From contig JAJDTU010000001.1 in assembly GCA_022826965.1 (NCBI GenBank), positions 62,001 through 126,000 of the forward strand: a DNA stretch of 64,000 nt, in the 5' to 3' direction. The translations under genes and the position numbers were made by a program. The stretch's first letter is position 1. Every line of letters begins with the position of its first letter. Below, piece after piece: positions 17,051-22,796 of this stretch. The stretch comes from Dehalococcoidia bacterium. GTDB taxonomy: Bacteria; Chloroflexota; Dehalococcoidia; Bin125. Below the pieces are notes generated by a model. The model saw only the letters and a list, made by a program, of their open reading frames with translations, was not told the DNA's origin and did not search any database.

Positions 17051-17644
17051 CTACTCGGTAACTTCGTCTTCTGATTCGTCCGGTGTCTCGGGAGGTTCGA
17101 TTGAGCCGTCGCCGACCATCACCTGCGTGGCGCGCAGGATGCGGTTGCCGACGGTGTAGCCGGTGCGCAGCACGGCGACGATCTCGTTGTGTTGGCCAGG
17201 CAGCTGGCCAACCGCTTCGTGGTACTCGGGATCAAACGGCTGCTCGATCGTCTCGATCTGCTGAACCTGCTGGCGCAGCAGCAGCGCATCGAGCTTCTGC
17301 GAAATCAGTTCCACGCCCTGACGCCAGGGATCGTCTGCGCTCGCGTCTTCCGCCGGCGCCTCACGGTTGGCGCGCTCGAAGTCGTCGGCCAACTCGATCA
17401 GATCGAGCAGGATCGCGCGCTGGGACTGCTGGACGCGGTCGCGCACATCCTGGGCCGAGCGGCGCTTCAGGTTCTCGAAGTCGGCCTGGGCGCGCTGCCA
17501 GCCGGCATAGTTGCGGGCCGACTCTTCGCGCAGCGCCTCAAACTCGCCGACCGGCTCGTCTATTGAAGCGGACTCTGCGTCGGACTCAAGCACTTCGTCG
17601 ATCTGCTGACTCGCTTCCGGAGTCGACTGGCTGTCCGAGATCAT
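17051..17644 (-). CDS. grpE: Nucleotide exchange factor GrpE
   Basis: 197 residues from the ATG that overlaps the hrcA stop (ATGA); longer in-frame extensions run inside hrcA and are not family-like. Long N-terminal helix with coiled-coil character (about 30-85, including [12 protein letters not shown]), then the four-helix and beta-sheet head ending with the GrpE signature [19 protein letters not shown]. It releases ADP from DnaK. The acidic N- and C-terminal tails are typical. Confidence 0.96.
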
Positions 17645-18738
17645 CGGCCGACTCCATAGACGGCGTCGATCATCTCCTGCAGGAGTTGGGAGTAGAAACG
17701 CGCGGCGGCGATGCTGCGCGGGTAGTTCATCCGCGTCGGCCCGATCACCCCTACGTAGCCGGGAATCTCGGGAGATGCGGCAGAGCCCGTTGAGGAGCTG
17801 TACGGCGCAAGCACCAGCGAGCATTCCTGCAGCAGCGCCGTCGGATGGTCGTCGCCGATTAGGACGTGCATCGCCCCGCGGGCATCGCCTTGCTGGGTGA
17901 CGTCCTCGACTACAGCCGCGGGAACGAGATCTTCGGCGGAGTGCTGATCGACGAGTTCGATCAACTCCAGCGAGCGCTCGGGCTCGTGCTGGAACTCGGG
18001 CTGCGCCATCATCCCGCCGAGCCCGGCAATCGCCGGGTTGCCCGCTCGCAGAGCGTCGCGGTCGAGCACCTGCGCCAGCGTGTCGAGCACGAAGTGCTCA
18101 ATCGGATGGGTTGCCGGTGTGTCGATCGCCTGGCGGGCCGCCGTGCGCACGTCGCTCGCCGAGCGGCCGCGCAACATCCAGGACAGGCGCGTCGCCAACT
18201 CGTCGAGTTCGTCTACCTCGACCGGCTGGGGAAGCGGCATGAGCTGGCGGATCATCCGCGCTTCCTGGACAACCACGATCATCAGCACCAGCAACTCGTT
18301 CAGCGAAATCAGTTCCACCTGACGCACACGTAGCTGCTCCGGGTGCGGCGGCGCGACGATGACAAGCAGGCCAAGCGAGCGAGCCAGGACTGTCGCCGCC
18401 AGCTCTACCCACTCGTCAACCGACGGCGCTGCCTGGAAGAACTGGTGTCGGACCGAGGCCTGCTCCGCCAATCCGAGTTCGGCGTGGCCCATCAGCGACT
18501 GAACGAAGTGGCGGTAGCCGCGATTCGAGGGCACGCGACCGGCCGAAGTGTGCGGATGCGTCAGATAGCCGCCCTGTTCGAGAGCGTGCATCTCATGGCG
18601 TATCGTGGCTGGCGACGCCGGCAGGGCGTATTTCTCCACGACATGGCGTGAGGCGACGGGCGTCGCCGTTTCGATGTAATCCTGGATGACGAGCTGCAGA
18701 ATGCCCGCGCGTCTGTCTGACAACTGTTCGGCGGTCAT
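17641..18738 (-). CDS. hrcA: Heat-inducible transcription repressor HrcA
   Basis: 365 residues, full length. N-terminal winged helix (PVASRHVVEKY, SPATIRHEMHALEQ-type recognition region, HTSAGRVPSNRGYR) binds the CIRCE operator; the GAF-like dimerisation domain follows, ending in the conserved VIGPTRMNYPRSI segment. It is the first gene of hrcA-grpE-dnaK-dnaJ-prmA and represses its own operon, with GroE titration the usual release mechanism. A perfect CIRCE element lies 62 bp upstream. Confidence 0.96.
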   Translation of the reverse strand: MTAEQLSDRRAGILQLVIQDYIETATPVASRHVVEKYALPASPATIRHEMHALEQGGYLTHPHTSAGRVPSNRGYRHFVQSLMGHAELGLAEQASVRHQFFQAAPSVDEWVELAATVLARSLGLLVIVAPPHPEQLRVRQVELISLNELLVLMIVVVQEARMIRQLMPLPQPVEVDELDELATRLSWMLRGRSASDVRTAARQAIDTPATHPIEHFVLDTLAQVLDRDALRAGNPAIAGLGGMMAQPEFQHEPERSLELIELVDQHSAEDLVPAAVVEDVTQQGDARGAMHVLIGDDHPTALLQECSLVLAPYSSSTGSAASPEIPGYVGVIGPTRMNYPRSIAAARFYSQLLQEMIDAVYGVGR

Positions 18739-18800: not shown

Positions 18801-18827
18801 TTAGCACTCTCCTACTGAGAGTGCTAA
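18801..18827 (-). promoter_or_regulatory. CIRCE operator (HrcA binding site)
   Basis: Perfect consensus inverted repeat TTAGCACTC-N9-GAGTGCTAA (arms 18801-18809 and 18819-18827). It lies between the predicted promoter and the hrcA start, so HrcA binding would block the heat-shock operon. The operator sits in the divergent region shared with the ketosynthase-like gene, whose start is about 100 bp away on the other side. Confidence 0.97.
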
Positions 18828-18834
18828 CGCGCTC

Positions 18835-18863
18835 ATCGTAGCAGCGTTTCCAGGAATCGGCAA
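18835..18863 (-). promoter_or_regulatory. Sigma70-like promoter of the hrcA operon
   Basis: On the minus strand, TTGCCG (18863-18858) and TACGAT (18840-18835) are separated by exactly 17 nt. Each box matches four of six consensus bases. Transcription would begin a few bases downstream, at the edge of the CIRCE element, the arrangement expected for HrcA control. Confidence 0.65.
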
Positions 18864-18929: not shown

Positions 18930-20177
18930 ATGGTGAGCGCGGGGGCATATCGGGGGATGACCGAAGACGGCGAAGGAGAGCCGCGGCGCGTCGTGATCAC
19001 CGGGCTGGGCGCCGTCACGGCAGCCGGCTCGACGCTCTCCGACTACTGGTCGGCCATCTGCGATGGGCGAGTTTGCACCTTGCCGCTCAACGCGTTTGAC
19101 GCTCCCAGGCGTGCGGCCGCCGGTCAGGTCCCGGACGACTGGCAGGGAGCGGCGGGCGCACCCGACTGGCTGCTGGCTCGGATGGATCGGGCCTCGCAAC
19201 TGGCGCTCGACGCAGCGATCCAGGCGCAGACCGACGCCCGCATCGTGTTCAACGAGCAGAACGCGTTCGCCGTCGGCGCGGTGACCGGCACCGCGCATCC
19301 GAGCGGCGGAGAGGGGTTCGCGGCGCTGGGCTCCGGCCTCTCGGGCGCCTCGGTCGGACTGAACATCGCCGGTCCCGTCTTCACCGTCGCGATGGGCGGC
19401 GCCTCGGGACTGGCTTCGGCCGTCCTGGCGACCCAGCTGATTCGCTCCGGGATTATCCGCGCGGCGATCGCGATCGGGGCCGAGGCGCCCCTGCGCCCGG
19501 ACGTCTGGAGCGCCTACGATTCGGCCGGGCTGCTCGATGGGTCAGACGACCCGACGGCGTATCGACCGTTCGACGCGAACCGTCAGGGCATGATCCTCGG
19601 GGAAGGGGCGGCCGCGCTCATGCTCGAAGACCGTCAATTGGCGACGCAGCGAGGCGTGCATATCTACGCTGAGGTCGCGGGCGAGGCGCTGACCTCGGGA
19701 CCGATGGGCGACGGGCTCGCGCCCACCGACGTGGAGATCGCCCGTCGCGCAACGGGTGATGCGCTGCTGAGCGGCGAGATCGCGCCGGCAGATATCGATG
19801 TCATCGTGACCGCCGGGCTCGGTTCCAAGCTCGGAGACGAGCGCGAGACGGACGTAATCGAGCGCGCCTTCGGGCGTCGCACGCTCGACATGTACGCGAC
19901 CGCCGTGACGCCGAACGTCGGCTACACCGTCGGCGCATCAGGAGCGCTCTCGGCGGTGTCGGCCGCTCTAATCGTTGATCAACGCAAGATTCCCCCGCAC
20001 GCAACCTTTGAAGAGGAAGACATCGCCTGCAGGCTGGGCATTGCCAGGCGCCTCTACGAAGACCGCATCGTCGGCGCGGCGACGGCGGCCTACGGAGCGC
20101 ACGGCCAGAACGCCGCGCTGATCCTGATGCCCCACCGAGCCGAAACGGGCGACGAACTGCCCTTGCTGGTCAACTGA
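18930..20177 (+). CDS. Beta-ketoacyl synthase-like protein lacking all catalytic residues
   Basis: 415 residues from the ATG with GGAG 7 nt upstream; starts at 18915 and 18957 are alternatives. The thiolase fold of FabF/KAS II is recognisable end to end (RVVITGLGAVTAAG; SAYDSAGLL; YRPFDANRQGMILGEGAAAL). The nucleophile Cys (family T-A-C-x-S-G) is Gly157 in VAMGGASG, the first His (N-A-H-G-T) is absent in TAGLGSKLGD, and the Lys/second-His motif (K-S-x-x-G-H) reads TPNVGYTVGA with Tyr332. The protein cannot do standard Claisen condensation. It resembles in principle chain-length-factor or other inactive KS partners, but no acyl carrier protein or partner KS is nearby. Confidence 0.9.
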   Translation: MVSAGAYRGMTEDGEGEPRRVVITGLGAVTAAGSTLSDYWSAICDGRVCTLPLNAFDAPRRAAAGQVPDDWQGAAGAPDWLLARMDRASQLALDAAIQAQTDARIVFNEQNAFAVGAVTGTAHPSGGEGFAALGSGLSGASVGLNIAGPVFTVAMGGASGLASAVLATQLIRSGIIRAAIAIGAEAPLRPDVWSAYDSAGLLDGSDDPTAYRPFDANRQGMILGEGAAALMLEDRQLATQRGVHIYAEVAGEALTSGPMGDGLAPTDVEIARRATGDALLSGEIAPADIDVIVTAGLGSKLGDERETDVIERAFGRRTLDMYATAVTPNVGYTVGASGALSAVSAALIVDQRKIPPHATFEEEDIACRLGIARRLYEDRIVGAATAAYGAHGQNAALILMPHRAETGDELPLLVN

Positions 20178-20227
20178 GATCAGATTGTCCGGCAGCGCAT
20201 ATGTCACCTACTTCGTAGGCTGTGGAC

Positions 20228-20881
20228 ATGGACATCGCCTGGTACGGACACGCCGCCTTCCGCCTGCGCGGTCGGGAAGCTGCGGTGGTCATGGACCCCT
20301 GCTCACCCGACACCGGCTTTCGCCTCAATCGGCCCAGCGCGGACATCGTCACGGTGTCCCGCGCGCTCGACCAAGCGCACAATTGGGTTGACGGGGTCGT
20401 GCTGGAGGGCTCGGAGAGCCACCGTCGGCTCGATGCGCCGGGTGAGTATGAGGTGAAACGGGTGCTCGCGACCGGCGTGCGCACGCCGGGACCGGAGGGG
20501 GCGCGCAACGTCGCGTTCGTGGTCACGATCGACGAAGTGATCGTCGCCCACCTCGGAGACATTCAGACGATGCCGGAACGCTCGGCGCTGGAAGAACTGC
20601 AACGGGCGGATGTGGTGCTCATGCCCTGCGGCGGCGGCGGCCATCTCTCGCCCGAGGCTGCAGCGAGCATTGCCGGCACGATTGCCGCGCCGCTGGTGAT
20701 TCCGATGCTCTACCAACCTGAGGGCGCGGATGAGGTCGAGACGAGCCTCGAACCGCTGTCCGCCTTCCTGCGCGAGATGGGTGTGACTGTCGATCCGCCG
20801 AGCGACAACCACGTCAACGTGACGCGATCATCGATCCCGGCCGCGCCAACCGTGACGCCGCTGCTGGCCAGAGGAGCTTGA
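20228..20881 (+). CDS. MBL-fold (UPF0173/UlaG-like) protein with degenerate metal site
   Basis: 217 residues. N-terminal MDIAWYGHAAFRL and the late VAHLGD and VIPMLYQ strands place it in the UPF0173-like branch of the metallo-beta-lactamase superfamily. The H-x-H-x-D-H metal motif, normally just after a VTVS strand, reads SRALDQAHN, so the first two His are gone, and the usual Pro-Met-His is PML. The Asp of HLGD remains. A two-metal hydrolase site is unlikely. A GTG 6 nt upstream is an alternative start. It ends 1 nt before the CocE-type gene and is probably co-transcribed with it. Confidence 0.82.
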   Translation: MDIAWYGHAAFRLRGREAAVVMDPCSPDTGFRLNRPSADIVTVSRALDQAHNWVDGVVLEGSESHRRLDAPGEYEVKRVLATGVRTPGPEGARNVAFVVTIDEVIVAHLGDIQTMPERSALEELQRADVVLMPCGGGGHLSPEAAASIAGTIAAPLVIPMLYQPEGADEVETSLEPLSAFLREMGVTVDPPSDNHVNVTRSSIPAAPTVTPLLARGA

Positions 20882-20882
20882 G

Positions 20883-22796
20883 ATGGATGAGCAGAGTCCA
20901 CATCAGAGTTCATTGGCCGAGTATGAGGTCGTCATCCAGCGCAATCGCATGGTCTCGATGCGCGACGGCGTATCTCTGGCGACCGATGTATACCTACCCG
21001 CGCAGGACGGAATCGCGCGTGAAGGCCCGTGGCCGACGCTGCTGACTCGGACGCCCTACGACAAGCTCGGATTCGCCGCCGACGGCGAGTGGTGGGCCAA
21101 ACGCGGGTACGCGCGCGTGATGCAGGACGTCCGCGGGCGATTCGCCTCGGAGGGCGACTTTTACCTGCTCAAGAACGAAGCCGAGGACGGCTACGACACG
21201 ATCGAATGGCTGGCCGAGCAACCGTGGTCGACGGGCAAGGTGGGCACGGTCGGCACCTCGTACATGGGCTGGGTGCAGTCGGCCGCGGCGACGCAGAATC
21301 CGCCGCACCTGTCGGCGATGTGGGTCAACCAGGGCGCGTTCAACGGACTCACTTCATCCCTGCGGCAGGGTGGCGCGCTCGAGTTACGCTGGCTCGCCTG
21401 GGCCTTCTGGAACGCACCGGTTAGCCCCGAGGCAATGCGCGATCCGGCGCTATACACCGCGCTCGACCGGGCCGCGGTTGACCTGCGCGGATATCTCGAC
21501 CGCCTGCCCTGGCGGGCGGGCGACACGCCGCTCTCGCTGACCCGGGACTACGAACGCTGGGCGATCGACCTGATGACGCTCGGCCGCGAGGACGACTGGC
21601 TCTGGCAGCTGCCGTCGATGAACTTCGAGCGGTTTATCGGGCGGACCGCGGATGTGCCCAGCGTCTACTCCGGCGGCTGGTACGACAGCTACACGCGAGC
21701 GACGACCGAGTCGTTCGTGGCGTTCTCCGAGGCGATGTCGTCGCCGCAGTACCTGCTCATGGGGCCCTGGACCCACGGCGAGGTCACTCTCGACCGCAGC
21801 TGGTCGGGCGATGTCGACTTCGGACCGACGGCTCCGACGACGGGCAACCTGGCGCCGAGCATCTCTGATTTGCGATTGCAGTTCTTCGATCACACGCTCA
21901 AGGACTTCGACAGCGGCTGGGCGGCGATGCCGCCAGTCAAGATGTTCGTCATGGGCGGTGGCAGCGGTCGGCGGATCGAATCGGGACGAATGGATCACGG
22001 CGGCGAGTGGCGCGACGAATCGCACTGGCCGCCGCCCAGCGCCGAGCTGGTGGACTGGTTCCTGCAGCCTGGCGGCGGTCTCTCGACCGAGGCCGCCGGC
22101 GAGGACGGCGGCTCGACCAGCTACCAGTACGACCCGAAGAATCCGGTGCCTTCGATTTCGGCCAACGTGTCGTCGCTGCGCGAATACGCGCCCGAGGATC
22201 CGACCCTGAAATCACAGATCTGGCCCCCGACGCAGCGGTCGCGGGAGCTGATCCTGCCCGGCGGCGGCGATCAGCGCACCCGGCCCGACGTGATGGGCGC
22301 GGAGCCGCCCTACCTGCCGACGGCGACGCGCTCGGACGTGCTCTCGTTCCGCAGCGAGCCGCTGGCGGAAGACGTCGAGATCAGCGGACCGGTCACGGTC
22401 CGGCTGTATGTCTCCTCCAGCGCGTCCGACACGGATTTCACCGCGGCGCTGCTCGACTGCTATCCGCCCAACGCCGACTATCCCGAGGGTTACCATCTGC
22501 GCATCTCGGACAGCATCAAGCGCCTGCGCTTCCGCAACGGCTACGACGCTGAGGACTTCGTCTCGCCCGGCGACGTGGTCGAGGTCTCGGTCGAGCTCTA
22601 CCCCACCTCGAACGTGTTCAAGGCTGGCCACCGGATCGGAGTCGAGATCTCGTCGTCGAACTACCCCAGATTCGACGTCAATCCCAACACGGGAGAACCG
22701 CTCGGTCGCCAGACGCACACACGAATCGCGCTGAACACGGTCCACCACAATGCGGAGCGCGCGTCGAGGGTCGAGTTGTCGGTGGTTCCGCGCTGA
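20883..22796 (+). CDS. CocE/NonD-family serine hydrolase (X-Pro dipeptidyl-peptidase S15 type)
   Basis: 637 residues. An alpha/beta-hydrolase domain (about 10-330) carries the nucleophile motif GTSYMGW, followed by a helical cap, the catalytic His region in GPWTHGE, and a C-terminal jelly-roll (about 440-630, including SGPVTVRLYVSSS and HRIGVEISSSNYPRFDVN). CocE-type enzymes hydrolyse esters or amides of varied small molecules; the substrate cannot be read from sequence. No signal peptide, so probably cytoplasmic. Confidence 0.9.
   Translation: MDEQSPHQSSLAEYEVVIQRNRMVSMRDGVSLATDVYLPAQDGIAREGPWPTLLTRTPYDKLGFAADGEWWAKRGYARVMQDVRGRFASEGDFYLLKNEAEDGYDTIEWLAEQPWSTGKVGTVGTSYMGWVQSAAATQNPPHLSAMWVNQGAFNGLTSSLRQGGALELRWLAWAFWNAPVSPEAMRDPALYTALDRAAVDLRGYLDRLPWRAGDTPLSLTRDYERWAIDLMTLGREDDWLWQLPSMNFERFIGRTADVPSVYSGGWYDSYTRATTESFVAFSEAMSSPQYLLMGPWTHGEVTLDRSWSGDVDFGPTAPTTGNLAPSISDLRLQFFDHTLKDFDSGWAAMPPVKMFVMGGGSGRRIESGRMDHGGEWRDESHWPPPSAELVDWFLQPGGGLSTEAAGEDGGSTSYQYDPKNPVPSISANVSSLREYAPEDPTLKSQIWPPTQRSRELILPGGGDQRTRPDVMGAEPPYLPTATRSDVLSFRSEPLAEDVEISGPVTVRLYVSSSASDTDFTAALLDCYPPNADYPEGYHLRISDSIKRLRFRNGYDAEDFVSPGDVVEVSVELYPTSNVFKAGHRIGVEISSSNYPRFDVNPNTGEPLGRQTHTRIALNTVHHNAERASRVELSVVPR

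Follow-up and report, generated by a model that had tools for sequence, protein, structure and literature searches.

The locus described here raises the question of what a ketosynthase (KS) without catalytic residues does beside a chaperone operon. Inactive ketosynthases are known chiefly as partners in natural-product pathways; the gene designated KSx encodes one that is fixed across a whole family of Dehalococcoidia at a housekeeping chaperone locus. We consider it plausible, and propose tentatively, that KSx is a conserved pseudo-ketosynthase which serves, without catalysis, as a scaffold or as a regulatory subunit and which has outlived a FabH neighbour. The window, in what follows, is the whole stretch of 64,000 nucleotides that was analysed.

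A ketosynthase fold without catalytic residues

Domain searches, an alignment and a predicted structure indicate that KSx (18930..20177, plus strand, ATG at 18930) encodes a protein of 415 amino acids with a FabF-type ketosynthase fold that lacks the catalytic residues. Both Pfam domains of the ketoacyl synthases match above the cut-off (N-terminal domain PF00109, 3.6e-25; C-terminal domain PF02801, 1.3e-16) and the top PDB relative by sequence is the FabF of Synechocystis (1e5m, E-value 7.9e-45). In the alignment with the E. coli FabF, the position of the catalytic Cys163 is occupied by Gly157 (codon 19398..19400, motif VAMGGASG), that of His303 by Ala295 (19812..19814, motif TAGLGS), that of Lys335 by Thr327 (19908..19910) and that of His340 by Tyr332 (19923..19925), all codons being on the plus strand. 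The preliminary description of this DNA had reported a KS fold with the Cys, both His and the Lys changed, and fold motifs persisting along the whole length; the alignment, the two Pfam domains and the predicted full-length fold bear this out. KSx is thus excluded as an active KAS II (FabF), since Cys-His-His and Lys335 are replaced by Gly, Ala, Tyr and Thr, and since the score against the NCBIfam FabF equivalog is 175.4 bits for a cut-off of 493.75. The score against AmcF (NF058662) is likewise below the cut-off (109.7 and 325 bits, respectively). The KSQ-type malonyl-ACP decarboxylases are recognized by a Gln at the Cys position with both His retained; KSx, with Gly at this position and both His gone, does not belong to them.

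The AlphaFold model of KSx, obtained from 58 aligned sequences, has a pLDDT of 88.4 and a pTM of 0.91, and may lean to the FabF fold because the input alignment contains active FabF-like proteins (the pLDDT is 56 with a family-only alignment and 88 after addition of FabF-like proteins from viral contigs). The top Foldseek matches of the model are FabF structures, the best being 1e5m (TM ~0.87, rmsd ~2.1 Å). With FabF, KSx shares the fold, the length and the structural residues Asp311, Glu314, Gly399, Gly402 and Asn404 (FabF numbering). It differs from FabF by the loss of the Cys/His/Lys/His residues and also of the Phe400/Asp265 gate, of the ACP-docking patch and of the segment 109-138. In the gate, Asp265 is replaced by an invariant Gly and Phe400 by Ala, Ser or Thr. 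The segment 109-138, which contributes to the acyl pocket and to ACP docking, is removed by a deletion of ~20-30 residues placed by the alignment at approximately 19296..19335 (plus strand); the deletion starts past an invariant His123, which stands in for the pocket residue Ile108. The residues of FabF that dock AcpP are Lys65, Arg68, Lys69, Arg127, Lys128, Arg206 and Thr270 (PMC7138838). KSx retains only Lys69 from this set, as Arg, and Lys128 lies inside the deletion. Judging from the remaining residues, neither condensation, nor decarboxylation, nor ACP docking is expected from KSx.

A pocket rebuilt around the invariant residues His123, Tyr332, Asp303, Glu306 and Asp261 would make KSx a new enzyme, and many family-specific invariant polar residues are compatible with this explanation. 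However, Asp303 and Glu306 are structural residues common to all KSs, Tyr332 is replaced by Phe or His in two members of the family and there is no new motif of a kind known for other thiolase-fold enzymes; a new enzymatic activity appears improbable.

Conservation in the family

Each of the 20 family genomes sampled, from five genera, encodes KSx (50-90% identity). Among these 20 proteins, the Cys163 position is occupied by Gly (17 sequences) or Ala (3 sequences), the His303 position by Ala and the Lys335 position by Thr or Ser without exception, and the His340 position by Tyr (18 sequences), Phe (one) or His (one). The members of the family obtain at least 579 bits with the KSx profile, versus at most 245 bits in the 373 other genomes of the class (393 searched); many of the genomes compared are incomplete bins, and the searches of the class and of the phylum are samples. 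Pairwise dN/dS values against the copy of the window are comprised between 0.09 and 0.23 within the genus, which points to purifying selection; they are approximate, because dS is about 1 or above in most pairs. The loss of every catalytic residue could be expected of a decaying paralogue or of an assembly artefact. This explanation deserves almost no credit, as the frame is open in 20 genomes out of 20, the gene order is fixed and dN/dS within the genus is in the above range; conservation and dN/dS together exclude a pseudogene, an artefact or a sequencing error.

The named relatives of KSx, collected by a scan of sequence collections from short patterns, are metagenome bins of Chloroflexota/Dehalococcoidia, and their titles suggest that many of them originate from sponges. 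A search for viral copies of KSx found none. Literature searches limited to open-access papers yielded no account of the family.

The hrcA locus

KSx is divergent from hrcA (17641..18738, minus strand), the first gene of hrcA-grpE-dnaK-dnaJ. The intergenic region shared by the two genes contains a perfect CIRCE element, the operator of HrcA, at positions 18801..18827 (0 expected by chance), and the CIRCE core is present upstream of KSx in 19 of the 19 family loci tested. This element is adjoined by a promoter-like sequence (TTGCCG-17 nt-TACGAT; 18835..18863, minus strand) which is conserved in 14 aligned loci and which is weak, remaining under the cut-off of the consensus scan. As the promoter-like sequence faces hrcA, CIRCE can be assigned to hrcA. 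HrcA may also control KSx via CIRCE.

On the other side, KSx is followed after 45 bp by a gene of the MBL fold (20222..20881, plus strand; PF13483, TM0207-like, 1vjn) devoid of the metal motif HxHxDH, and the spacing suggests that the two genes form an operon. The next gene (20883..22796, plus strand) encodes a hydrolase of the S15/CocE type, identified by domain search and in the family loci; it follows the MBL gene in the genus and in one sister genus, and is absent from the most distant genera. The order hrcA / KSx - MBL is found in nearly every locus of the family, with rho close by. The MBL gene stays adjacent to KSx in the family, where HxHxDH is lost throughout. KSx has no neighbouring KS or ACP gene, either in the window or in those loci of the family that were read. 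Of the earlier statement that KSx is alone beside hrcA, the adjacency to hrcA (in divergent orientation) and the missing KS neighbour stand; the solitude does not, given the MBL-fold and S15 genes that follow closely.

These features bear on the main alternative to a scaffold or regulatory subunit, namely a homodimeric, non-enzymatic sensor binding a ligand or an acyl group and reporting perhaps the lipid state, its position beside hrcA allowing a heat-shock response. The fold is closed and the pocket is remodelled, with the invariant His123 at the place of Ile108, the invariant Gly257 and the conserved motif GPxGDG..PTD at the position of loop 2 of FabF, and the perfect CIRCE lies in the shared intergenic region. 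The protein may also bind lipids, the other reading offered in the preliminary description. Nevertheless, KSx has neither a DNA-binding domain nor an output module and the conserved promoter beside CIRCE faces hrcA, and we regard a sensor as rather unlikely.

Inactive ketosynthases linked to fabH

The nearest relatives of KSx are eight non-catalytic KSs from two other families of Dehalococcoidia, designated f17 and f66. Outside the KSx family they constitute a discrete set, with scores of 560-692 bits versus at most 389 bits for all other KSs of the 393 class genomes, and a sample of 400 genomes of the phylum yielded no further member. In f66 the catalytic Cys has become Gly and in f17 Ala; His303 is replaced in these proteins by Tyr or by Ser/Thr, and Lys335 and His340 are retained. 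The f17 proteins (L045, L098, L099, L242-L244) carry a deletion of their own in the acyl-pocket segment, and several of their genes are unlinked from fabH.

The genes are arranged as hrcA / fabH - inactive KS - MBL in the f66 genomes G149 and G217 and as hrcA / fabH - inactive KS in the f17 genome G208. Genome G069 contains fabH - inactive KS, with no hrcA within the stretch read, and three other f66 genomes (G168, G198 and G234) contain hrcA / fabH - MBL without KS. Only about half of the inactive KSs outside the KSx family directly follow fabH. The metal motif of the MBL protein is intact in two f66 genomes (SHDHPDH and SHDHPGH) and mostly intact in the other families. In several families of Dehalococcoidia, the slot that separates hrcA from the MBL gene is occupied by fabH, with or without bioY, in divergent orientation relative to the chaperone operon (L176-L191, L222-L236), and in some other Dehalococcoidia loci this slot is empty. 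In the KSx family, the slot is taken by KSx itself, without fabH. FabH (PF08545) was detected in none of the 20 genomes of this family. It scores above the cut-off in 13 of the 14 f17/f66 genomes, the last one (G250) having only a weak match below the cut-off, and the Cys-His-Asn motifs are intact in all four FabH proteins of f66/f17 that were read.

KSx fits this set by the loss of Cys and His303 and by the position of its gene in the hrcA-[fabH]-MBL slot. It further shares with the f17/f66 proteins the link with the MBL gene (f66) and the deletion of the pocket segment (f17). In these proteins, unlike in KSx, Lys335 and His340 are still present; they also occur alongside an active FabH, whereas the genomes carrying KSx are without detectable FabH.

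The phylogeny with FabF, CLFs (chain length factors) and inactive KSs, suggested in the preliminary description, gave a partial answer. KSx, f17 and f66 are grouped with support values of 93/86, under the starred level, KSx being on a long branch. The best tree, which includes two CLFs, does not group KSx with them; a grouping of KSx with these two Streptomyces CLFs is nevertheless not rejected by the AU test (p 0.26). A grouping with the FabF of its own genome (C12) is rejected (p 0.001), which excludes that KSx is a recent copy of this gene. With the f17/f66 profile, the best match listed in some family genomes is an ordinary FabF and not KSx; owing to this divergence, common descent rests mainly on the shared locus. 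It is strongly suggested that KSx and the fabH-linked inactive KSs share ancestry, chiefly from the hrcA slot common to the three families, with the tree in support.

Possible partners and role of KSx

The CLFs (KS-beta) of type II PKS are inactive paralogues of the FabF type, and KSx had been described at first as a possible orphan KS-beta-like partner. A search for a partner KS, as then advised, covered the genome of 3.0 Mb, which is 97% complete, and found four other KS genes, all with C-H-K-H intact; the nearest lies on the contig of KSx, at a distance of ~37 kb. KSx could be a CLF-like subunit pairing with one of these four active, Cys-bearing FabF-type KSs encoded far off: as in the CLFs, the catalytic residues are lost and the KS fold is retained, and the AU test does not reject the grouping of KSx with CLFs. 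Against this, the Cys position of KSx holds Gly or Ala and not Gln, which is found in the CLF controls; the segment 109-138, which lines the acyl pocket of the partner, is deleted in KSx and intact in the aligned CLF; the ACP-docking residues are erased; and no KS-alpha, ACP or PKS genes are close by in the loci read. Lys335, present in the aligned CLFs, is also missing. We judge a CLF-like role unlikely, in particular because the chain-length and pairing segment is deleted. A normal KS-CLF pair is excluded by the neighbourhood and the motifs. Such a pair in relatives would, according to the preliminary description, have made KSx a known type. The apparently orthologous inactive KS of the relatives does directly follow an active condensing enzyme, so that the idea of a partner stands in part; this enzyme is FabH (KAS III) and not a KS-alpha.

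Two other KS-derived subunits can be compared with KSx. The PqsBC heterodimer (PMC4807248) combines PqsC, an active FabH-like subunit, with PqsB, which has no residue of the catalytic triad left and presumably serves PqsC as a scaffold. KSx resembles PqsB as a subunit of the KS superfamily without catalytic triad, and differs in being of the FabF type instead of the FabH type and in the absence of a quinolone pathway here. ApeC, from the aryl polyene KS-CLF ApeO-ApeC, is also non-catalytic and derived from a KS; unlike KSx, it retains essentially one thiolase half-domain and is encoded in a polyene cluster (PMC8358021).

Under the proposed scaffold or regulatory role, a FabF-type duplicate would have become, in Dehalococcoidia, the second gene of an operon fabH - inactive KS - MBL, back to back with hrcA-grpE-dnaK-dnaJ. 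Cys163 and His303 are missing from the inactive KS in each of the three families. The KSx family would then have dropped fabH, and in KSx the loss would have extended to Lys335 and His340 and to the loop gate. The protein, retaining the dimer-type thiolase fold and the structural residues, would hold a protein partner or a ligand without catalysis. The ancestral partner may have been FabH, in the way that PqsB serves PqsC; the likeliest present partner would be the degenerate MBL-fold neighbour or another KS. Both the scaffold role and the partner are inferred. The loss of the pocket segment and of the ACP patch speaks against a classical role as KS partner. A more elaborate version, which we consider very improbable, is that KSx and the MBL protein form a conserved complex of two pseudoenzymes that detects the state of fatty acids or acyl groups and is coupled to the heat-shock switch of HrcA, as a remnant of the fabH operon turned regulator.

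The loci form a traceable series, from fabH with a partly degraded inactive KS to the absence of fabH with a fully degraded one, and this series makes it possible to ask why a KS fold persists once catalysis, gate and ACP docking are gone. It also raises the question of how genomes without FabH start fatty acids; no MadB (PF09500) was found in the genome of the window either. Finally, two adjoining KS genes with all catalytic residues present are located after a FabD-like gene (G000:C13:41996-44493; L003, L004).
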